DNA of 64,000 nucleotides, taken from assembly GCF_005049285.1 (NCBI RefSeq), contig NZ_SOSC01000001.1, positions 744,001 to 808,000 of the forward strand. Reading direction: 5' to 3'. The stretch comes from Halorientalis salina (lineage in GTDB: Archaea > Halobacteriota > Halobacteria > Halobacteriales > Haloarculaceae). This document shows positions 6,465-23,511 of this stretch, piece after piece (positions within the stretch are counted from its first letter, which is position 1; every line of letters begins with the position of its first letter). The notes below the pieces were generated by a model that was not told the origin of the DNA, ran no database searches, and saw nothing but the letters and a program-made list of their open reading frames with translations. Position numbers and translations under genes: made by a program.

Positions 6465-7361
6465 TTACCGGTACTCGCCGGCGCAGTAGGCGTCGATGGC
6501 CGCGCGATACCCGCGCCGATACGTCGGGTATTCGAACTCGTAGCCGAATGCCTGGAGGCGGTCGTTCGAGCAGCGCTTGCTGGTCTGTATCCGCCGTCGA
6601 GCGGCCTCCGAGAGGTCGCCGTCGTCCAGCCGCTCGGCTTTCGTCCGCTTGGGCGGCTCGGGCACGCCACACTGCTCGGCAAGCCAGTCGGCGAACGCCC
6701 ACTTCGAGACCGGTTCGTCGTCGACGACCAGGACGGCCTCGTCGCGGGCGAGATCCTCCGCGAGCAGATACCGGACGGCTCCCGCGGCGTCGTCGCGGTG
6801 GATCATGTTCAAGAATCCCTCGGTCACTGGTCCGTCGACGTACCGAGTCAGCCGGTAGCGGTCGGGTCCGTACAGGCCGGCGAAACGCGCGACGGTCCCG
6901 TCGATCCCGTAGTCGGCGGCGACCTCGTGGGCGACCCGCTCTGCTTCTGCGAGTACTCGCGTCTTCTCGGTCGTCGGATCGAGCGGCGTTTCCTCGTCGA
7001 CCCAGTCGCCGCCGTGGTCGCCGTAGACGCCGGTACTGGACGTGTACACGAGCCGGTCCGGCGAGTCCTCGCGACCGCCGAACTGCTCGATCGCCGTTCG
7101 CAGGCCTTCGACGTAGACCTCGCGGGCGGCCTCGGCACCGCGACCGCCGGAACTGGCCGCGAAGACGACGGCGTCCGCGTCGGGGACCGACGCCAGTTCG
7201 GTGGCCTCGGTGATGTCCGCCTGGACCGACTCGAAGCCGGCCGACTCGATGGCATCGAGACCGTCCTGTGATCGCCTGACGCCGACGACCTCGTGGTCGT
7301 CGGCCAGCTGTCGCCCGAGTTCGAGTCCGACGTAGCCACAGCCGAGGATTGCGACGCGCAT
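6465..7361 (-). CDS. NAD(P)-dependent epimerase-like (extended SDR) protein
   Basis: 298 residues with an N-terminal Rossmann motif (ILGCGYVGLELGRQL, residues 4-18) and the SDR-e style segment LVYTSSTGVYGDHGG near residue 110. RFAGLYGPDRYRL near 175 and NMIHRDDAAGAV near 205 are typical of extended SDRs of the YeeZ type. I do not see the catalytic YxxxK lysine at the usual place, as in YeeZ-like members, so it may be a nucleotide-sugar binding protein of unknown chemistry. It starts 2 nt after the stop of the DUF5791 gene, so the two are co-translated. The N-terminal ATG abuts the Rossmann fold and is secure. Confidence 0.85.
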   Translation of the reverse strand: MRVAILGCGYVGLELGRQLADDHEVVGVRRSQDGLDAIESAGFESVQADITEATELASVPDADAVVFAASSGGRGAEAAREVYVEGLRTAIEQFGGREDSPDRLVYTSSTGVYGDHGGDWVDEETPLDPTTEKTRVLAEAERVAHEVAADYGIDGTVARFAGLYGPDRYRLTRYVDGPVTEGFLNMIHRDDAAGAVRYLLAEDLARDEAVLVVDDEPVSKWAFADWLAEQCGVPEPPKRTKAERLDDGDLSEAARRRIQTSKRCSNDRLQAFGYEFEYPTYRRGYRAAIDAYCAGEYR

Positions 7362-7363
7362 GA

Positions 7364-7792
7364 TTATCCTTTCTTGCTCTCGATGAACTGGTGGAGGACG
7401 GCGTACTCTCCCAGCGTCATCGGATAGCGACCCTCGACTTTCTGCTGGATCTCCTTTGCGTCCATCTGTGCGTTGATTCCCGACTGGATGGCCTCGACGT
7501 CGAGAACGGCCACGCTCATACCCATCATCAGGATGTCCCGTGCGTCGGCGGCGAGGAAGTCCGCGTCCGGTCGGTCGGGGTCGGTCGCGAGGATCGCTGC
7601 GGCCTCCTCCAGCGTGATTTCCGGGGACTCGCCAGCCAGGAGCGAATCGAGCGTCTCCTCGTCGACGTCCGTCGCGTCGGCGACTGCGTCGACGCCCTGG
7701 GTTTCGACGGTTTCGGCGAGGACCCGCTCGTAGGCCCTCCGCAGTTCCTCGGGATCCCGTTCGGCCGGCGATTCGAACTCGTCTCGTAACAT
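7364..7792 (-). CDS. DUF5791 family protein
   Basis: A 142-residue acidic soluble protein. I recognise the haloarchaeal DUF5791 family from the start MLRDEFESP, the TLEEAAAILA helix, RDILMMGMS, and the ending KEIQQKVEGRYPMTLGEYA. The segment DATDVDEETLDSLLAGESPEITLEEAAAIL reads like a helix-turn-helix-like helical bundle, but DNA binding is only a guess. The function of the family is unknown. The start at 7792 is preferred over a 9-codon extension to 7819, because the family begins with MLxDEF. It is followed after 2 nt by the epimerase-like gene and lies 34 nt downstream of the large secreted protein gene on the same strand. Confidence 0.8.
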   Translation of the reverse strand: MLRDEFESPAERDPEELRRAYERVLAETVETQGVDAVADATDVDEETLDSLLAGESPEITLEEAAAILATDPDRPDADFLAADARDILMMGMSVAVLDVEAIQSGINAQMDAKEIQQKVEGRYPMTLGEYAVLHQFIESKKG

Positions 7793-7826
7793 GCTCACCG
7801 ATTGGGCATCCCGGTACAAATCACTG

Positions 7827-10800
7827 TTACTCTGCGTCCCGTTCGGGCCACCTCGACGGAACGGGTCGCTCGCTCCCGTCCCCCTCGTCCATCTCGACGC
7901 CGTCCCAGTTCGACCAGCCGGCGGACCGCTCGTCCATGTTGCCGTCCTTGTCGCCGACGCCCTGCGCGCCGGGCGGGACGACGATCGCGACGGCCGTCCG
8001 GGCCGAAAAGGAGACGCGTTCGGCTCGACCGAACGCCTCGTCGGCCCCGTCGCCGTCGAAGTCCAGTCGAGCCACGGAACCGTCTCTGACGTAGGTAAGG
8101 GAGTTTCCAGGAGCGTCAGCCCCGCCGGTTTCGGCCCGGACGGCGAACCGGTCGTATCCGCCTTTGACCTCGACGTACCAGAGGTTCGTCGTCGCCCACC
8201 AGGGCGTTCCGATTGGAACGAGCGGCAGGCCGGCCGGCACGCGGTTCATCGACTTCCCGAGCCGGTTTTCGATCCGGTCCGCTGCCTCGTTCGTCCCGTT
8301 TTTCATCGCGGCTTTCACGCGGTCGTTCAGCTTCCCTGCCAGCTCCTGGCGCATGAGCGCGGCCGACTCGTTGACTTTCCCGTGGGCGATTCGCGTCTCC
8401 TTCGCACTCGTCGCCTGCATCGACTGCATCTGGAGGTTCGAACGGGCGATCGCACGCTTCGTCTCGTTGTCGTCGACCGCTTCCGTCGCGATCGCTACCG
8501 CAGCCGAGCCATTGGTCACGGCGAGTGCCTTCCCGGCCGTCGTGTCCCACTCGGCGAGTCCGTCCTCGATCGTCGCCAGTCGGTCCGACCGGCTCTCGCC
8601 GACGTTCGACTCCCTGAGCGCGTTGCGGAGGTACTGTTCCTCGACCACCTGGAGTTTGCCGTCGACTGCGGGCCGTAACTCCGCTCGCTGTGCCGTCAGG
8701 TTCCGCCCGAGGTCCCCCTCATCGGTCACGGCCGTTGCCGCGTCGAGTCCGTAGAGCGTCTGGGCAGCCGTCCGGAACCCGACCTTCTCCCCGAGGCCGA
8801 CGGCACCCAACAGCGTGTCCGTCAGATCCCCGTGTGGGTTCGTGAATACGTTCACGTTCCGCGCGGCCAGCGGGTAGACGCTCGTCTCGTCGGAGAGCGG
8901 TTCGACGTACTCGTCGCCGACTTCCGCCGTCGTCAGATACGGCGGCGAACCGTCGACGGCCGTGACTTCGACGCCGTCGATCCCCGCGTCGTCGGTCCGT
9001 CCGACCCCCTGGCGTTCGGTCAGCGCGTTCTCCACGAGGTCCTTCGAGGCACCGACCGTCTCCAGTACCGACGTGAGATTGTCCCGTCGCTCCCAGCGGT
9101 CGTCGCGTCGGTCCCGAAGCAACTCCCTGGTCTCCCTGACGTACGAACCGCGAGCCGCGACGCGGGCTTTCTGCCCGACCGTTCGGTACTCCCCGGAAGC
9201 CGAGATCAGTCCCAGCCGCTCGTCGGCGAGTTTCCGCCGGAGTTCGCCCGCGGGATTCGCCTGAAAGGTCCCGGCCCGTCCCCGCTGGACGGTCACCGAG
9301 GTGTTCCTGACCGATGATCTGAGGTCGACGATGTCCCCGATGGCCTGCCGCCGTAGGCCGTCCGGAACGTCCGCTTCGATCGCCGTCGGACTCGTATCGA
9401 GGTCGTTGTTGGCGGCGCGTTCGGCGAGTCCGTTCCAGCCGCCCCGTCCATCGACGACCTGCGAGTCCGCTCGGTCGTGGAGATTCGACAGATCGAGACC
9501 ACCGAACCGGCCGCCGTTCTCGATGTCAGTGATTGGCCGCTCCGGGGCGTACTCGCTGTGTGCGTGTCGCCCGACCAGTGCCATGTCGACCCTGAATCGG
9601 TTCGTTTCCGTCGCCGTAGTCGTCGTGGTGGCCTCTTCGGAGACCCAGTGGCACGTGGTCGTGACGTTCAGCCGAACCGTCCGTCCGGCGGAATCCACCA
9701 CGTGCCAGTTCGACCCCGTGTCCGGGACCGAGGCCGAAACCGTCTCGAACGCCGCGTTCCGGCCGGTTCCCGTCGAGCCGTTGAAAAACCAGAGCCCCTC
9801 CGGCCTGGTGTGCCTGCAGTTCACCGGGTCCCCGCTGATCTTCTCGACGTCGGCGACTGGCTTCACGTCGACGCTGTAGACCGACTGGAGGACGCTGGTG
9901 AGGTTCGAGCTGTCGGCCGCGTTGGCGAAGGCGCGGTCCGCCGTCTCGTTGACGCCGACGCGCATCTCCTCGCCGGGGTCCGGTACCTCGGAGCCCTGAG
10001 AGTAGCGTTCGATCCGCTGTGGGACGTTCGCACCCGGTGGCCCACTCGGAAAGACCCGATCGACCCACTTCCCCTCGACTGGCGACTCGGCCACGAGGTC
10101 CGAGAGTCCGACGTCGACCATCGCCTCGCTCAGGGCTCTGCGACCGGTCGCGTCGCTCCGGCCGAACGCAGTTCGCTGTTCACGAAGGAGCGCGCCGTTG
10201 GTCATCAGCGCGACGTGGCGGTTCGCGAGGACGTTCGTGATCGCCCCGCCACCGCTTCCGTACTGGGCGTAGCCCCGCGCCCAGGTCAGCGCGTACAGTC
10301 GACCCGTCAATCGCTGTGAGAGTCCCGGCTTGTCCAGTCCCCGATCCAGTCGCGTCTCGAACTCCTGTACCCCGTCGTGGAGTGCCATCACGGGCGTTCT
10401 GACGGTCAGGGTGGGACTCACCTGTTCCCGGCCGACGGTCCGGTTCCCGCGTCGGGCCGTGATCGTGACGTTCTCGACGTGTACCTCGAGTTTCGTCTCG
10501 TTGTCGCCGACGGGCTCGATGTGAACGCGCCGTTTCGCGTCCCGTAGTGCGCTCGCGTTCGGCGTCGGCGGCAGCGACGCCGTCGCAGTGACGCCCTGCT
10601 GTTCGATCTCGTGGTCGGCGAGTCGGTCGCGCGCCTGCAGGTAGATGCGGACCCGAAGCCAGTCCCGGAAGGTGTCGTCCTCGTCGAGGACGCGCCCGGC
10701 TGTGGTGTTCGATCGCGACAGCACCGGCTCGCGGGCGGCCGCATCGCCCGCCGTCACGACCGCAGTACGGAGTTCGGTCGTCGTCGAGGCCGTCGCTCTG

Positions 10801-10940
10801 TCCATCACCACGTCGACGGGCGGCTCGCTGGCGGGGCGGTCGGGCTGCATTCCCACTGTCAGCGCCGCACTCGCGACCAGGAGGACGATTCCGACGAGCG
10901 CGAACGGGACCCGGCCGCGCTCGTCGTCGGCCAGCCTCAC
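7827..10940 (-). CDS. Large secreted pilus-locus protein (DUF7286-like)
   Basis: About 1037 residues with one N-terminal hydrophobic helix (DERGRVPFALVGIVLLVASA, about residues 6-25) preceded by an RG-type basic-glycine turn. This is reminiscent of TadE/TadG-type pseudopilins or a signal anchor. The rest is hydrophilic, rich in N-x-S/T sequons, and probably faces outward. Apart from MV-rich segments there are no clear enzymatic motifs. It matches my memory of haloarchaeal DUF7286 proteins, which sit in the same pilus-like cluster. The start is the GTG at 10940, which overlaps the upstream stop (GTGA), rather than the GTG at 10949. It is the last gene of the T2SS-like run and the largest in the window. 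It could be the tip or adhesive subunit; this is inference from position. Confidence 0.75.
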   Translation of the reverse strand: MRLADDERGRVPFALVGIVLLVASAALTVGMQPDRPASEPPVDVVMDRATASTTTELRTAVVTAGDAAAREPVLSRSNTTAGRVLDEDDTFRDWLRVRIYLQARDRLADHEIEQQGVTATASLPPTPNASALRDAKRRVHIEPVGDNETKLEVHVENVTITARRGNRTVGREQVSPTLTVRTPVMALHDGVQEFETRLDRGLDKPGLSQRLTGRLYALTWARGYAQYGSGGGAITNVLANRHVALMTNGALLREQRTAFGRSDATGRRALSEAMVDVGLSDLVAESPVEGKWVDRVFPSGPPGANVPQRIERYSQGSEVPDPGEEMRVGVNETADRAFANAADSSNLTSVLQSVYSVDVKPVADVEKISGDPVNCRHTRPEGLWFFNGSTGTGRNAAFETVSASVPDTGSNWHVVDSAGRTVRLNVTTTCHWVSEEATTTTTATETNRFRVDMALVGRHAHSEYAPERPITDIENGGRFGGLDLSNLHDRADSQVVDGRGGWNGLAERAANNDLDTSPTAIEADVPDGLRRQAIGDIVDLRSSVRNTSVTVQRGRAGTFQANPAGELRRKLADERLGLISASGEYRTVGQKARVAARGSYVRETRELLRDRRDDRWERRDNLTSVLETVGASKDLVENALTERQGVGRTDDAGIDGVEVTAVDGSPPYLTTAEVGDEYVEPLSDETSVYPLAARNVNVFTNPHGDLTDTLLGAVGLGEKVGFRTAAQTLYGLDAATAVTDEGDLGRNLTAQRAELRPAVDGKLQVVEEQYLRNALRESNVGESRSDRLATIEDGLAEWDTTAGKALAVTNGSAAVAIATEAVDDNETKRAIARSNLQMQSMQATSAKETRIAHGKVNESAALMRQELAGKLNDRVKAAMKNGTNEAADRIENRLGKSMNRVPAGLPLVPIGTPWWATTNLWYVEVKGGYDRFAVRAETGGADAPGNSLTYVRDGSVARLDFDGDGADEAFGRAERVSFSARTAVAIVVPPGAQGVGDKDGNMDERSAGWSNWDGVEMDEGDGSERPVPSRWPERDAE

Positions 10941-11833
10941 GGGGACCACGTCCTGACGGTGATCCGGACGGTATCGACGGTGACGTTGGCCGCAGCGGCC
11001 TCCGGCGACTCGAAGCGCGTTCGCATGTCCGCCGCCAACCGCTCGCCGAGGGTGTCGGCCAGTCGAGCGTTCGCGGCCGTCGCGTCGTTCGCCAACGCCA
11101 GCGCGGTCACGTTCGTCCCGACGAGTCGACCGAACCGCTCGTAGCGATAGGTGACGAGTTGGGCGACCGGATAGTCCCCCAGCAGTGCCGTCCGGGTTTC
11201 GTCCGGCGGGAACGAGCCCTCGACAGTGCTGGTCGCGACGACTTCGCCCACGGCGCTCATGTTTCCAGTGGAGTTGGCCATAGCGCGCGCCCGGCCCCGC
11301 GTGGCCGGCATCCCGCTGTTCACTGTCAGGGTCGCTGCGTGCACGTCCGCCGACGGTGGTGGTGTCGGCCCGATTCGGACCGCTCCGCGGAGTAGCGCAC
11401 CGTCGTACGGTTCCCAGACGGCCCGAACTTGCGTGCGATGGTCGCGGGTTCGGATCGCGTTGCGCGTCGCGTCCGCGACCGCGCGCTCGAAGTCGTCCCT
11501 GGTGTGGGCCACCGGCACGCCGTTCATCGTGAGGTTCCCGACCGCGGCCGAGGCCAAGTGGCTCGCGAGGGTGCCGTGTGCGGTTCGCTGGAACTGTGGG
11601 CCGCCGGTTCGGGGGAAGGTCACGACCTCCGAACGGGCCTGCCGCGCGCCCGGAGCCAGCGTGTACCGAACGTCGGCAGTGCTCGTCGCCAGCACGTCAG
11701 CCGTCTCGTCGGCTCCATCGGCGTCTGCAGGTGGCAGCGACCCCATCGGAAGTGTCAGGGTCGCGACCGCTGCCCCAACCAACAGCAGGAACAGGGCCGC
11801 GTCGAGGACGGTACTGGTGGCTCGCCGCCTCAT
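10937..11833 (-). CDS. Secreted pilus-locus protein (DUF7284-like)
   Basis: 298 residues with a short basic N-terminus (MRRRATST) and one hydrophobic helix (VLDAALFLLLVGAAVATLTL), then a soluble domain with several N-x-S/T sites. The layout is that of a pseudopilin or TadE-like subunit exported to the cell surface. It overlaps the next gene by 4 nt (GTGA) and its own ATG overlaps the previous stop (ATGA), so expression is translationally coupled. The C-terminal VTVDTVRITVRTWSP looks like an edge strand. No enzymatic motif is visible. The family name is from memory of the conserved cluster; a structural minor-pilin role is inferred. Confidence 0.72.
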   Translation of the reverse strand: MRRRATSTVLDAALFLLLVGAAVATLTLPMGSLPPADADGADETADVLATSTADVRYTLAPGARQARSEVVTFPRTGGPQFQRTAHGTLASHLASAAVGNLTMNGVPVAHTRDDFERAVADATRNAIRTRDHRTQVRAVWEPYDGALLRGAVRIGPTPPPSADVHAATLTVNSGMPATRGRARAMANSTGNMSAVGEVVATSTVEGSFPPDETRTALLGDYPVAQLVTYRYERFGRLVGTNVTALALANDATAANARLADTLGERLAADMRTRFESPEAAAANVTVDTVRITVRTWSP

Positions 11834-12225
11834 CGCCAGACCCTCACCGTCAGTCGACCGGGCCGGACGCGTCCGGGAGCGATGCGGACGCTGACCCGTT
11901 CGCTCGCCTGCTGAGCTCGCTGCGGCGGCGCGGGGCCAGCATGCCAGCGATTATCCGTCGTTTCGAGCGTCGCGTTCAGGTGATACCCATTGGGGGCCGT
12001 CGCTGTCCGTGCGTCCGACAGTGCCCCCGGTTCGACGATCCCGCTCTCCCCCATCGACGATTCCAGGTGGTCGAGCGTCGGGCCGGCCACCCGCTGACGA
12101 TCTTGCCCCGGCAGCGTCCCGTCGAGGACACCCGCATAGACGGTGAGACCGGCACCCACTGCGAACACGGCGACGATGGCTGCCAGCGGTTCGACCTGTC
12201 CCCTACGTCCCGACCAGCGTGACAT
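11830..12225 (-). CDS. Pseudopilin-like protein with type III (prepilin) signal (DUF7285-like)
   Basis: 131 residues. The N-terminus, SGRRGQVEPLAAIVAVFAVG, looks like an archaeal class III signal peptide: basic residues, a glycine for PibD-type cleavage, Q at +1, then an unbroken hydrophobic helix. This is the clearest prepilin peptidase site in the locus and makes the protein a good candidate for a filament or pseudopilus subunit. The mature domain is short (about 100 residues) and ends in alternating strands (RVSVRIAPGRVRPGRLTVRVW). It overlaps its upstream neighbour by 23 nt and its downstream neighbour by 4 nt. Confidence 0.75.
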   Translation of the reverse strand: MSRWSGRRGQVEPLAAIVAVFAVGAGLTVYAGVLDGTLPGQDRQRVAGPTLDHLESSMGESGIVEPGALSDARTATAPNGYHLNATLETTDNRWHAGPAPPQRAQQASERVSVRIAPGRVRPGRLTVRVWR

Positions 12226-12673
12226 CGACGCCCTCCCAGGATATCCGCCGAACGATCAGTTTTCCGTCGATACGTTCCCACTGCCGCGTTCGGTTGCGTG
12301 CCGTTGCGGTCGCCGTCCGAAACTGCGAGGCGTTGGCGAAGGCCGTGGCCGGTGGCGTCCCGGTAAGTACGGGAGCCAGGGGAGAATCTTCCCGAACCGG
12401 TGTCACGGGGCCGTAGGCGAACGCTGCGTGCGCAGTGCCGCCGTCGTTCCGGAGCGCGACACGGTGTGGTCCGAGTTTGATCCCCGTCGCGTCCAGCGAG
12501 TGCTCGCCGGTCGCCTCGTGCGGACTCGACGCGACGGCGTCGACGGTGTTTGCTACCCCCGCTGCGTCAGGTGGGACCGTACTCGGCAGGGCGACCGCGA
12601 CACCGAGCGCGAGGGCGCTCGTCGTCGCGACCCCGATCCAGAGATACCAGGAATCGGCCGGTGCATCGAACAT
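12203..12673 (-). CDS. Secreted pilus-locus protein (DUF7283-like)
   Basis: 156 residues with one N-terminal hydrophobic helix (SWYLWIGVATTSALALGVAVAL, about residues 8-29) and an extracytoplasmic domain. Like its neighbours it looks like a small exported pseudopilin-type subunit. The end of the gene overlaps the next start by 23 nt, which suggests coupled translation. It follows the T2SS F gene by 42 nt. No recognisable catalytic motif. The family name is from memory of the conserved four-gene set in haloarchaeal genomes. Confidence 0.7.
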   Translation of the reverse strand: MFDAPADSWYLWIGVATTSALALGVAVALPSTVPPDAAGVANTVDAVASSPHEATGEHSLDATGIKLGPHRVALRNDGGTAHAAFAYGPVTPVREDSPLAPVLTGTPPATAFANASQFRTATATARNRTRQWERIDGKLIVRRISWEGVDVTLVGT

Positions 12674-12715
12674 GGCCGGCCCTGGCCGCGTTTCCGGACT
12701 TAAACTTCAGGCGTC

Positions 12716-14455
12716 TCAGAGGAGGAGACCCGCCGCGTAGAACGACGCCAGATACGTCGCGGTCGCAGCGACCAGCGCCCAGCCGACGCGATAGCCCACG
12801 AGCGCCCGGTCGAGTCCCCGCGAGAGGCCGGTCGAAAGCGTCGTGAGCAGGGCGGCAAGGACGAGCACGTAGATCCCAACGGCGAGACCGAGGCCCGCCG
12901 TTCCGGGTCCACCGGCCGTGGCCATGGTTTCACCCGCTCCGCTGCTCCCGGCGCTACTGCCACCCATCGTCATACCATCGGCCAGCGCAACGGTCGCGCC
13001 GGCGACCAGCGGCGCGAAGACCGCCGCTGTGTTCGCGAGCGTGCTGGTCACCTGTCCGATGCGATGGCGAGCGTCCCGTTCGACCGTCGCCAGTTCCTCC
13101 AGGTGGTCGGCCATCGCGACGATTGCACCGCCGGCCGGTCGCCCCTCGCGGGCGGCGAGTGAAAGCAGCGTCGCGGTACTCCTGGCACGAGAGCTCGGTA
13201 CCGTCGCCAGCGCCCCGTGCTCGCCGAGGAACGCCTCCCGAACGCCGACTTTCAGCTGTCGCTGTCGGTGCGCGGCGTCGGCCAGGACCTGCCCCGTCGC
13301 GTCGGTCACCTCCTCGGCGGCGGACTCGACGGCCGTCTCGACCGCCTGCCCCTCCTCGACGCGGCGGCCGACGTGGTACAGCGCGTCGGCCAGCCCGTCC
13401 TCGACAGCACGTACGCGGTCCCGGACCGCTTTGACGGGTCGATAGTGGACGACGAGTGCGGTCCCGGTCCCACAGCCGATGGCGGCCAAGGGTCCGGTCC
13501 AGATGCCGACCAGTACCGTTCCAGCGAAGCCACTCACCGCAGCCGTCACCGCACCTGCGACGACGGGCGGCCAGGCACGATCCGGGAGGTCGGGATGTGA
13601 GCGGTCGATACTCGGTGGCGGGAAGGTTACGGGGCGCCGGACGAGTAGCCAGACGCTGGCCGCGAGCAGGACGCCTGGCAGGAGGAGGTCGTAAAGGAGA
13701 ACGATTCCAGCCAGCGGGACCGAGACGCCGGTCATCCCGATGGCCGGGAGCAGTGCGACGAGCGCCAGCGGGAGCAGGACGCCGAACGCGTACAGCGCCG
13801 TCGCGGGCCCCTGGAGACTCGCCGCGAACCCGGCCATCTCGTCGCGAGCCCCGTCGAGCACCGCGTCCAGCCCGCGGTCGAGCGTCCGCTCGCGCTCGCC
13901 CCGCGGGGCCGTACCGGCCGACTCCACTAACAGGAGTGCACGCCGGAGCGCCGGGAACCACTCGTCCCACTCCACGGTAAAGCCCGTGAGTCCCGAACGC
14001 GGATTCCCGGCCGCTCGGCGGACGTGCTCCCGGAGACTCGCTGCCAGCGGCCCCCGTCCGGTTTCGGCGGCGAAGGCGGCCGCCGACTCCGTCGCGGGCG
14101 TGATCCGCATCCGGAGGACGGCCCGGCTGACCAGCGCCGGAGCCTCGCCGAGCGCCCGCGTGCGACGCGCCGTCGCGAGTACTCGGGGGGCAGTGTGGAC
14201 GGCGTGGACGAGCCCCAGCAGTGCAGCCACTCCACAGAGTCCGACGACCGGGACCAGCGCAGTCGGTACGAGGACGACGCCGACGACGACCAACGGGGAC
14301 CAGGCAAGCGCCGCACCGTAGCCGGCCCGGACGACCGTCTCGGGCATCGTCGCCGTTCCGAGAAACCCCAGCGCGCGGTCCAGTTCTTCGCTCGCCTCCA
14401 CGGGCCAGGGGTAGAGCCGAGCCAGTCCACGGACCGCGTGCTCGGTGGGATGCAT
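12716..14455 (-). CDS. Type II/IV secretion system F-family membrane protein (TadB/TadC-like)
   Basis: A 579-residue polytopic protein with two repeats of the T2SS-F/GspF fold. Each has a cytoplasmic helical bundle (about residues 95-215 and 335-455) followed by paired membrane helices, with further helices at both ends. Such a double-F protein replaces separate TadB and TadC and forms the inner-membrane platform of archaeal pili. It acts with the ATPase encoded immediately upstream. The stop and start overlap by one base (TGATG at 14457-14453), so ATPase and platform are made together. The start ATG at 14455 is chosen over the TTG one codon earlier. Confidence 0.88.
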   Translation of the reverse strand: MHPTEHAVRGLARLYPWPVEASEELDRALGFLGTATMPETVVRAGYGAALAWSPLVVVGVVLVPTALVPVVGLCGVAALLGLVHAVHTAPRVLATARRTRALGEAPALVSRAVLRMRITPATESAAAFAAETGRGPLAASLREHVRRAAGNPRSGLTGFTVEWDEWFPALRRALLLVESAGTAPRGERERTLDRGLDAVLDGARDEMAGFAASLQGPATALYAFGVLLPLALVALLPAIGMTGVSVPLAGIVLLYDLLLPGVLLAASVWLLVRRPVTFPPPSIDRSHPDLPDRAWPPVVAGAVTAAVSGFAGTVLVGIWTGPLAAIGCGTGTALVVHYRPVKAVRDRVRAVEDGLADALYHVGRRVEEGQAVETAVESAAEEVTDATGQVLADAAHRQRQLKVGVREAFLGEHGALATVPSSRARSTATLLSLAAREGRPAGGAIVAMADHLEELATVERDARHRIGQVTSTLANTAAVFAPLVAGATVALADGMTMGGSSAGSSGAGETMATAGGPGTAGLGLAVGIYVLVLAALLTTLSTGLSRGLDRALVGYRVGWALVAATATYLASFYAAGLLL

Positions 14456-16353
14456 CAACGCGCCTCCCGACGCCGCGCGTGGGCGTTACACACTGCTTCG
14501 GGGTCCGTCCGACCGGCCGTCGCGAGGTCGCCCAGCCACGACGCCCGATCGTCGAGTCGCTCGCGGACCGCGGCGTACCGTTCGCCAGACCTGGCGAGTC
14601 CGTCCACCAATCGGCTGTTCCCGCGAGCGATTCGACCCGTCGAGACGAGTTCGCCGTCGTCGAGTTCGAACAGCGGCTCGAAGCGCACGCCCTCGTCCCC
14701 GTACGTGACCTCCTCGATGGCTTTTACCCTGCGAGCCCGCCCTTCGGCCGACTGGTAGGGCTCGCAGGTCACGAGCAGATCCGTCGCGCCGAACGACGAG
14801 GGCGCGACGTCGAGGTCCGAGACGACGCGCTCGCGTACGTCCGCGCCGCCGTCGCCGTGGATCGTCCCGAGGACCGCGCTCCCGCTCGCGCCCACTCGCA
14901 TCGCCTCGTAGAGTACAGCGGCTTCCTCGCCGCGAACTTCGCCGAGGACCAGCGCTCCCTCGCCGAGTCTGAGCGCCGTCCGGAGCGCCTCGGACGGCGG
15001 GACGCCCGCCCCATCGTCGTCGGCCGCACGCAACAACTGGACGTCCCGGCCGGCCGTCTGGAGCCGTTCGACCGGGAGTTCCGGCGTGTCCTCGATGACC
15101 ACAGTTCGAGTATCGGCCGGGAGTTCCCACAGCAGCGCCCCCAGGAGCGTCGTCTTCCCGGCCCCGCGAGTTCCAGCCAGGAGCGTCGCCGCGTCGCGCT
15201 CGACGGCCAGGGAGAGCAAGGCAGCGGCCTCGGCCGGGAGCGTCCCGTTTTCCACGAGCGCCGGGAGTGTCCAGGCCTCCCGCTCGTGGGCGCGGAAGGC
15301 GAAGGCGATCCCCTCGCTGACGGGTTCGGTCACGCCAGCCACTCTGAGGCGGCGGTCGCCCACGGTCGCCGTCGCGTCGAGCGTCGGACTCGCCCGCGAG
15401 AACGCCCGTCCGTTCTCCCGGCGAAAGCGGGACGCCAGCGCCTCGACGCCCTCGGTCGTCACCCGGACGTTCGTCCGCATCGTCTCGCCGTCGACCCGCA
15501 CGCGCAACCGATTCGCGTCCGTCGGGGCTGTCGCGAACACGTCCGAGACGCGGTCGTCCGCGAAGAGATCGACCAGCACCCCATATCCCCGCGTGTGTTT
15601 CTGCAGGACCGCTTCCAGCGTCCGCACCTGGTCCTGGCCGTCGTCCACGACCCGCCTGACCGCCCGAGCCGGTGCGCGCTGTCCACCAGTGACCGCACCG
15701 CTGGCGAGTCGGTCGTAGGCGGCCGAAAGGGTCGCCGTGGCACGCTCGTCGAGTTCGTGTTCAACCGGTTCGAGGTGGTACAGTCGTCGTTCCGTCGTCG
15801 GCTGTTCGTAGACGCGCACGACCGCACCCGTGTCGAGTTCTCGTTGGGACTCGAACCGCGCGTCGGCCGGCGGCCGCACCCCGACCCGCGCCCGGCTGAT
15901 AACCGGGCCGACCGACGGCGCGAGTGCGCCCTCGTAGCTATCGGCCCGGGCGGCCAGTTCGGCCAGTCCAGTTTCGGCAGCGATGTCGGAGACGGGACCG
16001 GCGCGGCCGGTCGCCTCTCTGGCGGCACCGAGCGGGTCGCGACAAGCCCGCGTGGCCAGGTCCGAGTCACGGAACGCGACCGCGTCAGCGAACCGGCCCG
16101 CGGCGACGAGTAGGGCGGCCGCGTCGTTCTCGTAGGCCCGCTCCATGCCAGCGGACCGGGTACTCACGGCGTCGGCGTCGCGCTCGCGCAGTCGTTCGAC
16201 GACGGTGGCTCTGCAGTCGGGGTCGGTCGCCAGGTGCCCGCCGCCGGGACAGTCCGACGCGTCGACGACCAGCCGGTCACCCTCGAAGGCGGGGTCGCAC
16301 CCACACGCGTCGGTGGGTTCCGGGTCCGTGAACCGCTCGAAGAGCGTTCGCAT
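14455..16353 (-). CDS. Type II/IV secretion system ATPase (GspE/TadA/VirB11-like)
   Basis: A 632-residue assembly ATPase. Walker A is GTRGAGKTT (residues 394-402), the Asp-box region is VVIEDTPELPV (418-428), Walker B is GALVLGEVRG (466-475) and the His box is GTIHGDG (496-502). The first 50 residues carry cysteines at 17, 19, 35 and 47, a possible metal site. Residues about 60-350 are the N-terminal N2-like domains. It would power assembly or retraction of the pseudopilus from the inner face of the membrane. It is the only ATPase in the locus, so assembly and any retraction would share it. It lies 96 nt after the DUF7311 gene. Confidence 0.9.
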   Translation of the reverse strand: MRTLFERFTDPEPTDACGCDPAFEGDRLVVDASDCPGGGHLATDPDCRATVVERLRERDADAVSTRSAGMERAYENDAAALLVAAGRFADAVAFRDSDLATRACRDPLGAAREATGRAGPVSDIAAETGLAELAARADSYEGALAPSVGPVISRARVGVRPPADARFESQRELDTGAVVRVYEQPTTERRLYHLEPVEHELDERATATLSAAYDRLASGAVTGGQRAPARAVRRVVDDGQDQVRTLEAVLQKHTRGYGVLVDLFADDRVSDVFATAPTDANRLRVRVDGETMRTNVRVTTEGVEALASRFRRENGRAFSRASPTLDATATVGDRRLRVAGVTEPVSEGIAFAFRAHEREAWTLPALVENGTLPAEAAALLSLAVERDAATLLAGTRGAGKTTLLGALLWELPADTRTVVIEDTPELPVERLQTAGRDVQLLRAADDDGAGVPPSEALRTALRLGEGALVLGEVRGEEAAVLYEAMRVGASGSAVLGTIHGDGGADVRERVVSDLDVAPSSFGATDLLVTCEPYQSAEGRARRVKAIEEVTYGDEGVRFEPLFELDDGELVSTGRIARGNSRLVDGLARSGERYAAVRERLDDRASWLGDLATAGRTDPEAVCNAHARRREAR

Positions 16354-16449
16354 GGCCGGGGCTCGTCCCGTTCTCGTACTTGAACCTCGGGGTCGGTCAA
16401 GCCGGCGTCCAATCCGTGAAACGATGGGAAGGGGCGACGACCGAACTGG

Positions 16450-16941
16450 TCACTCGTCGCCCACTCGTCGAACGACGACCGCCGTCTCATCACCCCGTTC
16501 TATCAGAGCAACAGATAATCTATGGATCCCCGGCTCCCGGATGACCACGGAGCCGGTGTCACCGCCGGTGTCGCCAGCGACCGTTACGTCCGGGATTCGT
16601 CGTTCCTGCGGTTCGCGACCGGTGACCTGCCATGCCAGCACTGTGCTGTTTCGGTCGTCGACGTCGGACCAATCGGGACGGCCCCCGATAGCGACGTACT
16701 CGATTCCCGCGTCGGTCCACGACTGCGCCGGAACCCGGAGCGTCACGACGCGCCGCGCGCCCGCCGAGCCCGCAGGTGCTGCGCTTTCGCGAGCGTACAC
16801 GTCTTCGATTGCGGCCGCCAGCCCGTCGATTTCCCCCTCGACGCGGTGCTCGCTGCGGTCGGCGCGGGCAGTCTCCAGTGCCGGCAGCGTCACCGCCAGC
16901 AACGCCACCGCGAGCGCGACGGCCACGACGACCCGGAGCAT
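16450..16941 (-). CDS. Secreted or anchored pilus-locus protein (DUF7311-like)
   Basis: 163 residues: one N-terminal helix (VVVAVALAVALLAVTLPALE, residues 4-23) followed by an alpha/beta exported domain with a helical stalk (HRVEGEIDGLAAAIEDVYARE), an arrangement typical of pseudopilins and of TadE-like proteins. The start codon overlaps the stop of the coiled-coil gene (TAATG at 16943-16939). No prepilin peptidase glycine is obvious, so it may be a signal-anchored accessory protein. Function is inferred from location only. Confidence 0.7.
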   Translation of the reverse strand: MLRVVVAVALAVALLAVTLPALETARADRSEHRVEGEIDGLAAAIEDVYARESAAPAGSAGARRVVTLRVPAQSWTDAGIEYVAIGGRPDWSDVDDRNSTVLAWQVTGREPQERRIPDVTVAGDTGGDTGSVVIREPGIHRLSVALIERGDETAVVVRRVGDE

Positions 16942-17546
16942 TACAGCGACCCGGTCAGCCCCGCGAGGAAGCCACCGTCGTCGTCTGCCTCCGACTCGCT
17001 GTCGGCGGTTCGGCCGGCAGCCCGTCGCTGGGTTTGCGCTCGCTGCTGTGAGTCCACGTCGGGTGAACCACAGCCCGCTGTTGCCTCGTCCGGTGACCCG
17101 CGCTGCGGTGACCTGTCCGCGCCCTCGGTCCAGCGCGGTTTCCCGCTATCCCTCCGGGTGCCGCCAGCGGAATCGTCGCCGACCCCGCGGCCGCTCCTGC
17201 TCGCACCACGGTCGTCCGCGGGTCGCTCCCGTCTCCCATCGCTCTGTCGACCCGATTCATCGTCCAGTCGCTCTTCGAGTCGCTCGACCTTCGCGAGTGC
17301 GAGGTCCGCGCGTTGCTCCACGTCGCGATTGACCGAGCGAACGTTGCCGACGTACCCGCGGACGGCCTGCGTGCTGGCTTCGAGGTCGGCCAGCTGGGAC
17401 TCGATTCCGTCCAGACGGCTCTCGAGGTCGTCGATACGAGTCGCGAGGTCGGCGGCGTCGGCCAGCCCCGCGAGCTCCCGATCAGTTCCAGTCAGTGCCC
17501 GTTCGACCGCCCGGAGCCGCTCGTCCAGTGTCTCGGTGTCCGACAT
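16941..17546 (-). CDS. Coiled-coil protein, first gene of the pilus-like operon (DUF7310-like)
   Basis: 201 residues. Residues 4-110 form a long heptad-rich coiled coil (ERLRAVERALTGTDRELAG, then DDLESRLDGIESQLADLEAS and VEQRADLALAKVERLEERL). The C-terminal half is charged, disordered, rich in R, S, D and G, and ends in GGFLAGLTGSL. No signal peptide or membrane helix is seen, so it is likely cytoplasmic. The start at 17546 (MSDTETLDE) is chosen by the coiled-coil register and by a TATA-like box 25 nt upstream; an in-frame extension to 17591 exists. It faces the cetZ gene across a 77-nt divergent promoter region, so a cytoplasmic adaptor role between tubulin and pilus is possible but speculative. 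Confidence 0.72.
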   Translation of the reverse strand: MSDTETLDERLRAVERALTGTDRELAGLADAADLATRIDDLESRLDGIESQLADLEASTQAVRGYVGNVRSVNRDVEQRADLALAKVERLEERLDDESGRQSDGRRERPADDRGASRSGRGVGDDSAGGTRRDSGKPRWTEGADRSPQRGSPDEATAGCGSPDVDSQQRAQTQRRAAGRTADSESEADDDGGFLAGLTGSL

Positions 17547-17570
17547 ACGGACGGTGGCCCCGTCTCGGGT

Positions 17571-17577
17571 TAAGAAG
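17571..17577 (-). promoter_or_regulatory. TATA-like box of the pilus-like operon
   Basis: On the minus strand the sequence reads TTCTTAA, 25 nt before the ATG at 17546, consistent with a leaderless start of the long minus-strand operon. Confidence 0.45.
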
Positions 17578-17593
17578 CTTCGGCCACCCAACG

Positions 17594-17600
17594 TTAAATA
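17594..17600 (+). promoter_or_regulatory. TATA box of cetZ
   Basis: TTAAATA lies 24-30 nt before the cetZ ATG at 17624. There is no ribosome binding site between them, so cetZ is probably leaderless. The box is only 17 nt from the divergent TATA-like box, so a regulator bound here could affect both directions. Confidence 0.6.
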
Positions 17601-17623
17601 GCCGGTACCACCACGTACCGGAT

Positions 17624-18706
17624 ATGAAAGTCGTCCTGATTGGTGTCGGACAAGCAGGAGGGAAGATCACGCAGGCGCTGGCGGAGTTCGACTACGAACG
17701 CGGCTTCGAGGCGGTCAAAGGCGCGTTCGCGGTCAACACCGCCCGCACGGACCTGCAGAGTCTCGACATCGACACGATGCTCATCGGACAGGATCGGGTG
17801 AAGGGTCACGGCGTCGGCGGTGACAACGAACTCGGCGCGGAGATCATGGAAGACGAGGCCACCGAGGTGATGGACGAACTCGACGGCCGCGTCACCAGCA
17901 AATCCGACGCCGTCTTCGTCGTCGCCGGTCTCGGCGGCGGCACCGGCAGCGGCGGCGCTCCGATGCTCACCCGGCAGCTCCAGCGCATCTACGACATCCC
18001 CGTCTACGGCATCGGCGTCCTCCCCGGACGAGACGAAGGGGGAATCTACCAGGCCAACGCCGGCCGCTCGCTCAAGACGTTCGCCCGCGAGTCCGATTCG
18101 GTCCTCCTCATCGACAACGACGCCTGGAAGTCCTCCGGCGAGAGCTTAGAGGAAGGGTTCGACCAGATCAACGACCGCATCGCCGAACGTATCGGCCTGC
18201 TGTTGGCCGCCGGCGAGGTCATCGACGGCGTCGGCGAGTCGGTCGTCGACTCCAGCGAAATCATCAACACCCTCAAGAACGGCGGGATCGCCTCGCTGGG
18301 CTACGCCTCCGCGACGGCCGCCGAGGACGCCGAGGAGAACATCAACGTCATCACCTCCGCGACCCGCAAAGCCCTGATGACCGGGACTAGCCTCCCCCAG
18401 GCCGTCAAGGCCGACAAAGCCCTCCTCATCGTCGCCGGCCACCCCGACCGCATCGCCCGCAAAGGCGTCGAGCGCGCCCGCAAGTGGCTCGAAGAGGAGA
18501 CCGGCAGCCTCGAAGTCCGGGGCGGGGACTTCCCGCTCAACTCCGAACGTATCGCCACGCTCGTCCTCCTCGGTGGTGTGGAAGGCTCCCAGCGCATCGA
18601 CGAGTTCATGGACCGCGCCCGGGAGGCCGAGGAACAGCGCCAGGCCTCCGGCGGCGAGGACGCCGCCGCTGCCTTCGAGAACGACGATCTGGACGACCTT
18701 TTCTAG
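17624..18706 (+). CDS. cetZ: CetZ-family tubulin-like GTPase (CetZ2-like)
   Basis: 360 residues, a cytoskeletal GTPase of the archaeal CetZ family. N-terminal VLIGVGQAGGK (residues 4-14) and the tubulin signature GGGTGSG (104-110) bind GTP; GDNELGAE (66-73) and GVLPGRDEGGIYQANAGRSL (about 130-149) are CetZ hallmarks. The tail ends in an acidic FENDDLDDLF element shared with CetZ proteins. I judge it closer to CetZ2 than to CetZ1 from the VLIGVGQAGGK start, but the assignment of a subgroup needs a tree. CetZ1 controls cell shape and motility in Haloferax; CetZ2's role is less clear. It is divergent from the pilus-like operon. The start fits the TATA box at 17594. Confidence 0.92.
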   Translation: MKVVLIGVGQAGGKITQALAEFDYERGFEAVKGAFAVNTARTDLQSLDIDTMLIGQDRVKGHGVGGDNELGAEIMEDEATEVMDELDGRVTSKSDAVFVVAGLGGGTGSGGAPMLTRQLQRIYDIPVYGIGVLPGRDEGGIYQANAGRSLKTFARESDSVLLIDNDAWKSSGESLEEGFDQINDRIAERIGLLLAAGEVIDGVGESVVDSSEIINTLKNGGIASLGYASATAAEDAEENINVITSATRKALMTGTSLPQAVKADKALLIVAGHPDRIARKGVERARKWLEEETGSLEVRGGDFPLNSERIATLVLLGGVEGSQRIDEFMDRAREAEEQRQASGGEDAAAAFENDDLDDLF

Positions 18707-22542: not shown

Positions 22543-23511
22543 CTAACTGTGGATGCCCATCGCTTCGATCTGTTCCTGGTAGCGGTTCCGGATGGTGACT
22601 TCGGTCACCTGAGCCACGTCCGCGACTTCGCGCTGGGTCTTCTTCTCGTTACAGAGCAACGAGGCGGCGTAGATAGCGGCGGCGGCGTACCCGGTCGGGG
22701 ACTTCCCGGAGAGCAGTCCTTTCTCGGCGGTGGTTTCGATGATCTCGTTGGCTTTGGTCTGGACCTCCTCGGGGAGGTCGAGTTCCGAGCAGAAGCGGGG
22801 GACGTATTTTTTCGGATCGACGGGTTCCATCTCCAGGCCGAGTTCCTGGGAGATGTACCGATAGGTGCGACCGATCTCCTTGCGCTCGACGCGGGAGACC
22901 TCCGAGATCTCCTCTAAACTCCGCGGGATGCCTTCCTTCCGACAGGCCGCGTACAGGGCGCTGGTCGCGACCCCCTCGATGGAACGACCGCGAATGAGGT
23001 CGTCGCTGAGTGCCCGGCGATAGATGACCGAGGCGACCTCCCGGACGGCGCGCGGAACGCCCAGCGCCGAGGCCATGCGGTCGATCTCCGAGAGGGCGAA
23101 CTGGAGGTTGCGCTCGCCGGCGTCTTTCGTCCGGATGCGCTCTTGCCACTTCCGGAGTCGGTGCATCTGGCTCCGCTTCTTCGAGGAGATCGAGCGCCCG
23201 TAGGCGTCCTTGTCCTTCCAGTCGATGGTCGTGGTCAGTCCCTTGTCGTGCATCGTCTTGGTCGTCGGCGCGCCGACGCGGGACTTCTCCTGGCGCTCGC
23301 TGTGATTGAACGCCCGCCACTCCGGGCCCGGATCGATGTTGTCCTCCTCGACGACCAACCCGCAGTCGTCACAGATCAACTCCCCCCGATCGGCGTCCTT
23401 GACGAGTTCCGCCGAATCGCATTCCGGACAGACGCGAACCCCCTCCTGATCGCCGCCCCGTTCGGTCTCGGTCTCGCGTTCGCGCTCCCGTTGACGGGTG
23501 GACCGTGTCAT
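22543..23511 (-). CDS. tfb: Transcription initiation factor TFB
   Basis: 322 residues. An N-terminal zinc ribbon (CPEC and CDDC, about residues 28-52, with [22 protein letters not shown]) is followed by a B-finger/linker region and two cyclin-like repeats (about 130-220 and 225-315) ending in a helix-turn-helix ([21 protein letters not shown]) that contacts the BRE element. TFB recruits RNA polymerase to the TBP-TATA complex. Haloarchaea carry many TFBs; from memory the neighbour order tfb - rnhA - rosR - ppa resembles that around tfbG in Halobacterium, so this may be the TfbG-type copy. The intergenic region with rnhA is A+T-rich (23540-23575). Confidence 0.95.

Follow-up and report, generated by a model that had tools for sequence, protein, structure and literature searches.

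A 64,000 nt stretch of the Halorientalis salina genome (the window; gene calls are based on a table of open reading frames (ORFs) and a Pfam scan) carries an operon of exactly eight minus-strand genes for a type IV pilus-like assembly system, facing a plus-strand gene, cetZ2, for a tubulin-superfamily GTPase. Outward from the junction, the gene order is DUF7310, DUF7311, ATPase, TadC, DUF7283, DUF7285, DUF7284 and DUF7286 (Table 1). An earlier note, made from the sequence of the window, had reported eight minus-strand genes 77 nt from a divergent CetZ gene, and the ORFs and Pfam matches agree with it almost exactly. Its picture of a CetZ gene opposite an operon for pilus-like assembly, in a widely conserved arrangement, is likewise supported by the domains, signal sequences and seven families described below. 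We think it quite probable that the operon specifies a haloarchaeal type IV pilus-like machine with DUF7310 as a cytoplasmic part, and that cetZ2 is an ancestral, separable neighbour for which coupling to the pilus is optional.

Components of the operon and of its divergent neighbour

The ATPase carries a Walker A motif (GTRGAGKT), an acidic box (VVIED) and a His box (TIH), and matches the TadA family model TIGR03819 at 1.7e-37, which is under the cut-off of that model. Its nearest relatives of solved structure (PDB search) are 2oap, CpaF and FlaI. The first 50 residues also hold a CxC...C...C cysteine pattern (ACGCDPAF...DCPGG...DCRAT), a possible metal site. The platform protein has seven hydrophobic segments and its gene adjoins that of the ATPase; the T2SSF match is under the curated cut-off, making the assignment weak by sequence alone, and the two halves of the protein are collinear in alignment but weakly so (hhalign E 0.095).

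Five exported proteins are encoded, three of them with archaeal class III prepilin signals that are found in 119/125 homologues of DUF7285, 116/130 of DUF7286 and 87/122 of DUF7284. Such a signal was not found as a conserved feature at the N-termini of DUF7283 or DUF7311 homologues. This refines the earlier note, which had listed four exported or pseudopilin-like proteins and one anchored protein. An AlphaFold2 model of DUF7311 (predicted local distance difference test score, pLDDT, 82.9) shows a 53-residue N-terminal helix followed by beta strands, a pilin-like outline, with no significant match among PDB folds. The model of DUF7286 is poor (pLDDT 62), and no PDB fold matched it with E ≤ 0.001. 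A scan with NCBIfam gave the small proteins of the operon no name, apart from chance coiled-coil matches. Elsewhere in the same genome there is an archaeal prepilin peptidase (Arc_PepC_II, 1.6e-7, over the cut-off, contig C18), as well as Pilin_N matches at eight places, seven of which pass the cut-off; they include stand-alone genes. The ATPase would drive the TadC platform, which in turn would assemble the pilin-like proteins. The prepilin peptidase probably cuts DUF7285, DUF7284 and DUF7286, and the other two exported proteins, DUF7311 and DUF7283, may serve as anchored accessory proteins.

The architecture of DUF7310 was followed over 152 homologues. Its coiled coil bears the motif ALRGYVGNVRxVN, and an acidic linker leads from there to a C-terminal amphipathic motif of the type GLLxRLRxxL; no hydrophobic segment was found. 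The C-terminal motif is present in 139/152 homologues compared to 49/1495 linker 14-mers, a descriptive contrast (no test was applied) as the pattern was written post hoc. It is the same whether or not the locus is linked to cetZ2. The protein is likely to be a cytoplasmic part of the machine, with the C-terminal amphipathic helix probably docking on the membrane, the platform or the ATPase. The literature searched gave no mention of DUF7310.

In a search of PDB chains, the CetZ of the window was closer to 4b45 (CetZ2 of H. volcanii, 5e-148) than to 4b46 (CetZ1, 1e-101), and the genome contains four CetZ-like places, this one included. Its C-terminal tail is conserved in CetZ2 proteins with and without neighbouring pilus genes.

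Table 1. Features of the pilus-like locus and adjoining genes in the window.
Feature	Position	Strand	Support
cetZ2, tubulin-superfamily GTPase, 360 aa, C-terminal tail NDDLDDLF	17624-18706	+	Pfam CetZ_C 2.7e-68, Tubulin 1.4e-33
Divergent promoter region, 77 nt, two back-to-back TATA/BRE-like cores	17547-17623	.	sequence
DUF7310, cytoplasmic coiled coil, acidic linker and C-terminal amphipathic motif, 201 aa	16941-17546	-	Pfam 1.2e-31
DUF7311, membrane-anchored exported protein, predicted pilin-like shape	16450-16941	-	Pfam 2.4e-41
Pilus assembly ATPase, TadA/VirB11 type, pilB2-like	14455-16353	-	Pfam T2SSE 4.3e-20
TadC/PilC-type membrane platform, pilC2-like	12716-14455	-	Pfam T2SSF 0.006, under curated cut-off
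DUF7283, anchored exported protein without class III signal	12203-12673	-	Pfam 8.9e-55
DUF7285, pilin-like, class III signal RRG^QVEP	11830-12225	-	Pfam 5.5e-37
DUF7284, pilin-like, class III-like signal RRA^TSTVLD	10937-11833	-	Pfam 2.2e-92
DUF7286, pilin-like surface protein, 1040 aa, class III signal RG^RVPFA	7827-10949	-	Pfam 1.8e-298
DUF5791, predicted regulator, taken as arCOG04674 of the literature	7364-7819	-	Pfam 2.5e-49
NAD-dependent sugar epimerase/dehydratase-like gene, taken as arCOG03095	6465-7361	-	weak NCBIfam oxidoreductase matches, synteny

Co-occurrence and linkage among the Halobacteria

Among 391 Halobacteria genomes, with thresholds set by eye (DUF7310 E < 1e-8, read from the tables; ATPase 1e-100; CetZ2 1e-105), the ATPase was present in 280, DUF7310 in 288 and cetZ2 in 316. 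The ATPase and DUF7310 were both found in 277 genomes, neither in 100, and 14 were discordant (3 with the ATPase only and 11 with DUF7310 only), counts that are not independent because the genomes are related. With thresholds set by eye and related genomes, the Fisher p-values from these counts are not to be relied on as they stand. Among the 11 genomes with DUF7310 only, G202 has its ATPase divided between two ORFs, and G121, G353 and G376 run out at the edge of a contig. The 111 genomes of Natrialbaceae include 64 with DUF7310 and 64 with the ATPase, and are discordant in incomplete genomes only. The cetZ2 gene varies independently: it occurs without the ATPase and DUF7310 in 56 genomes, and is missing from 25 that have both. 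Five genomes of genera g6 and g7 (G140, G145, G268, G165 and G178) keep cetZ2, and lack both DUF7310 and the ATPase. In its distribution, the coiled coil DUF7310 goes with the filament machine and not with CetZ2.

The earlier note had suggested that the coiled coil at the junction could bridge pilus and CetZ. This idea is weakened, since DUF7310 tracks the ATPase, is present with it in the 25 genomes without cetZ2 and is absent from the 56 cetZ2-only genomes; as primarily a partner of CetZ, it was rejected on the phylogenetic profile. A bridging role may still apply because five genomes from two families have DUF7310 next to cetZ2 and the ATPase at another place, which hints at a tie between DUF7310 and CetZ2.

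All of the fetched loci with both DUF7310 and cetZ2 (102/102) have the two genes neighbouring and divergent, adjacency having been scored on fetched loci rather than on every genome. Of these, 96 also contain the ATPase, and in five of the six others it lies elsewhere. The divergent linkage spans seven GTDB families. Confinement of the pair to one lineage would have spoken against the earlier note; this is not the pattern seen. Among the best 150 places listed for each gene, the two were adjacent, and always divergent, in 49 of 85 genomes, which is not a class-wide frequency. The corresponding figure for Natrialbaceae, read from the search tables, is 13 of 59 genomes with both genes.

A tree of 142 ATPases largely follows the families and requires four linkage changes, all forced by well-supported branches, compared to 42.5 for shuffled labels. 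It was built by FastTree only and has a provisional midpoint root (support 75); under another root, some of the changes may be gains of linkage. The simplest reading is that linkage is apparently basal, with separations in the Natrialbaceae-type clade, in Halovenus-like and Haloarcula-like genomes, and in one further genome without cetZ2. With 102/102 loci divergent and only four changes in the tree, the linkage looks ancestral and not like a recent mobile element; the pairing is probably old and inherited from a common ancestor, its halves being separable.

Transfer has nevertheless probably occurred. In genus g71 of the Natrialbaceae, the ATPases of linked loci are 65–68% identical to that of the window, compared to 50–58% in the rest of the Natrialbaceae, and the cetZ2 of linked loci in g71 and g76 is 69–73% identical (70–73% in g71) compared to 58–68%, making it probable, as judged from these identities, that cetZ2 and the ATPase of g71 were transferred together as a block. 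Brown and Duggin (2023) proposed a mobile-element-like distribution of the pilus regulon, and found the same flanking genes whether or not it is present (PMC9856176). The probable block transfer in g71, and the Natrialbaceae-type pilus copies that occur as second systems in four genomes (G058, G161, G300 and G141), are consistent with a mobile element acquired beside cetZ2. Set against an ATPase tree that is mostly by family with four linkage changes, and the same divergent junction with a similar gap in seven families, this origin is very unlikely.

Other arrangements were seen at separated or rearranged loci. Full pilus operons of Haloarcula-like genomes (L081, L086 and L129) face genes read by eye as mre11/rad50, not cetZ2, while in the Natrialbaceae-type clade (L130, L108, L181 and L216), DUF7310 adjoins a HerA-like ATPase gene (named by eye), again not cetZ2. 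Halorussus-like genomes (L014, 5144–21075; L017) have a split operon: TadC, ATPase, DUF7311 and DUF7310 face cetZ2, and DUF7283, DUF7285, DUF7284 and DUF7286 are ~6.6 kb downstream of cetZ2, on the cetZ2 strand.

The divergent promoter region

The 77 nt between the two ATGs contain a TATA-like TTAAAT on the plus strand (17593–17598) and a TTAA element on the minus strand (~17570–17575). They are 17 nt apart, as the earlier note had pointed out, and each is ~27 nt from its own start codon, the spacing expected for leaderless haloarchaeal transcripts. The gap is 74–85 nt in 58 of 89 measurable loci, a figure for this junction alone, and the clustering is partly built in because the script picked the in-frame start giving the gap nearest 77. 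The clustering is supported by 35 non-redundant loci, in which conserved positions lie between -37 and -26 relative to each start. Loci outside the cluster are those of Halorussus and Haloferax, with longer gaps or unclear starts. Such a gap has room for roughly two leaderless core promoters, and the junction can be read as two leaderless promoters packed end to end.

Unlinked cetZ2 genes in several lineages retain the same promoter core, CAACGTTGATTAG. As this core is unchanged where no pilus adjoins, the cetZ2 promoter appears to be independent of the pilus. Joint regulation, which the earlier note had taken from the closeness of the two TATA-like boxes, is thereby weakened: the cores are packed end to end, yet that of cetZ2 is identical without a pilus beside it, and TATA spacing was found insufficient as evidence.

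The retained core and the narrow range of gap lengths, near twice a core promoter, would also suit a purely historical linkage, i.e., independent genes held together by a compact common divergent promoter region and seldom gaining by separation. Both parts survive separation in Haloarcula-like and Halovenus lineages. Published expression data point in the same direction, with cetZ2 of H. volcanii dropping at biofilm onset (PMC7749143) and pilB2 of Hbt. salinarum rising 8.5-fold in adherent cells (PMC4292770), although these results come from differing species and conditions. Four changes over seven families represent long retention for a neutral pair, and block transfer is possible. A historical linkage is a plausible explanation, short of being the favoured one.

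The linkage would have a function if CetZ2 polymers formed a scaffold for placing or gating the pilus machine and DUF7310 were the adaptor that joins these polymers to the ATPase; a scaffold role for CetZ2 was proposed by Brown and Duggin (PMC9856176). The ancestral divergent linkage in seven families, the occurrence of another kind of type IV system next to cetZ in Thermococcales (PMC9856176), the linked genes of g71 (and of g76 for cetZ2) that are closer to those of the window, as if co-transferred, and the five genomes where DUF7310 stays by cetZ2 with the ATPase elsewhere would all fit. Such a scaffold is nonetheless somewhat unlikely: DUF7310 tracks the ATPase and not cetZ2, 25 genomes having both without cetZ2; neither the CetZ2 tail nor the C-terminal motif of DUF7310 changes with linkage; and deletion of the single cetZ2 gene in H. 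volcanii gave only mild shape effects at an early-biofilm stage (PMC10606840). It is doubtful that CetZ2 filament and pilus machine form one unit, coupled as proteins via DUF7310 and in expression via interlocked leaderless promoters, with two pre-initiation complexes competing for about 76 nt. We prefer to regard cetZ2 as an ancestral divergent neighbour that would share a minimal promoter region with the pilus operon, either as an optional partner, through shared expression or by CetZ2 positioning the machine, or as a mere neighbour.

Relation to published systems

The locus is of a known kind, already described in relatives. Makarova et al. (2016) described halobacterial pili of subclade 4F with a VirB11-type ATPase, TadC, predicted pilins, an S-layer-like protein, the intracellular coiled-coil arCOG07564, which they presumed to be regulatory, and an FtsZ-family gene in the same context (PMC4858521). 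All of these are shared with the window, where DUF7310 provides the intracellular coiled-coil component; from description and position, arCOG07564 would be DUF7310. According to Brown and Duggin (2023), most of the Haloferacales and Halobacteriales that they studied have the pilB2/C2 regulon next to cetZ2, with arCOG04674 and arCOG03095 genes close by, in the same order as in the window (PMC9856176). One species with cetZ2 and a linked pilus regulon is H. volcanii (PMC9856176), in which DUF7310 was also found here. Gene content and order agree with the published pilB2/C2 (4F) description, the label arCOG01818 being taken from the literature. In Halobacterium, Losensky et al. (2015) found the pil-2 locus (PilB2 OE1347R, arCOG01818) to be co-transcribed over seven ORFs, with PilB2, PilC2 and exactly three predicted prepilins, and with blastn matches in haloarchaea only; CetZ was not discussed, and function was unproven (PMC4292770). 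The operon would thus appear to be the pilB2/C2 system, pil-2 of Halobacterium and apparently subclade 4F of Makarova, a name that is uncertain because one paper places H. volcanii PilB2 in 4C.

The novelty of the pairing is reduced accordingly, as both the cetZ2-pilB2/C2 adjacency and a halobacterial coiled-coil component were published previously (PMC9856176, PMC4858521). Additions are the tight co-occurrence of DUF7310 and ATPase, the apparently old linkage with few breaks and the compact conserved junction. Whereas 22 (then 41) species suggested a mobile, recent regulon (PMC9856176), in the 391 genomes the linkage is seemingly ancestral and was broken about four times, and the coiled coil tracks the ATPase. 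The cetZ of Thermococcales beside a clade 1 pilus locus shares the combination of a CetZ/FtsZ-family gene with type IV pilus genes, and differs, according to the papers, in ATPase clade and pilins (PMC9856176, PMC4858521). The cytoplasmic coiled-coil adaptors ArlC/D/E (FlaCDE) of the archaellum are alike in idea, by analogy only, the FlaC_arch match (0.13) not being significant.

Several observations weigh against the pilus-like machine as proposed. Besides the relatedness of the genomes, the FastTree-only tree with its midpoint root, the scoring of adjacency on fetched loci and the five genomes where DUF7310 and ATPase are parted, these concern the machine itself. The ATPase gene is interrupted by a frameshift or stop at differing sites in five loci (L017, L092, L171, L214 and L220), which seems to reflect either a decay-prone system or sequence errors. 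Hbt. salinarum pilC2 has an internal in-frame stop, and NRC-1 pilB2 an insertion (PMC4292770); together with the five interrupted ATPases, these suggest that pil-2-type systems are often broken or dispensable. The operon has no PilA-type major pilin, and a filament has not been seen so far for a pilB2/C2-type system. These last two points, and the size of DUF7286, by far the largest component, would suit a type II-like pseudopilus exporting the 1040 aa DUF7286 or other proteins with no extended pilus. Given the homology to TadA/TadC and FlaI-type systems, the prepilin signal of DUF7286 itself and the stand-alone Pilin_N genes, a secretion machine is unlikely, and a pilus-like assembly remains our preferred reading.

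CetZ2 is without known function, and the adjoining pilus system is among the most widespread unstudied haloarchaeal machines (280/391 genomes). The earlier note had stated that neither the appendage nor its link to CetZ has an established function, and none was found in the literature. The comparison predicts that DUF7310 is essential to the pilus, that CetZ2 is dispensable for it and that the divergent promoters show interference or coupling. If CetZ2 does affect the pilus, a tubulin-family cytoskeleton would thereby be linked directly to a type IV filament.

The conserved block extends past DUF7286 to DUF5791, which is downstream in most loci, and then to the epimerase-like gene. Outside the Halobacteria, the C-terminal half of DUF7286 has relatives in the same phylum (G408, G414, G423, G555 and others), and also in the Methanosarcina acetivorans control. 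On the other side of the junction, a TFIIB-family general transcription factor gene (22543–23511) lies ~4 kb from cetZ2. The window also holds two type I phosphodiesterase genes (PF01663; 27872–29248 and 37551–39095). A similar-looking phosphodiesterase gene directly adjoins cetZ2 in one locus (L113), and such a gene is among the cetZ2 neighbours in the literature.

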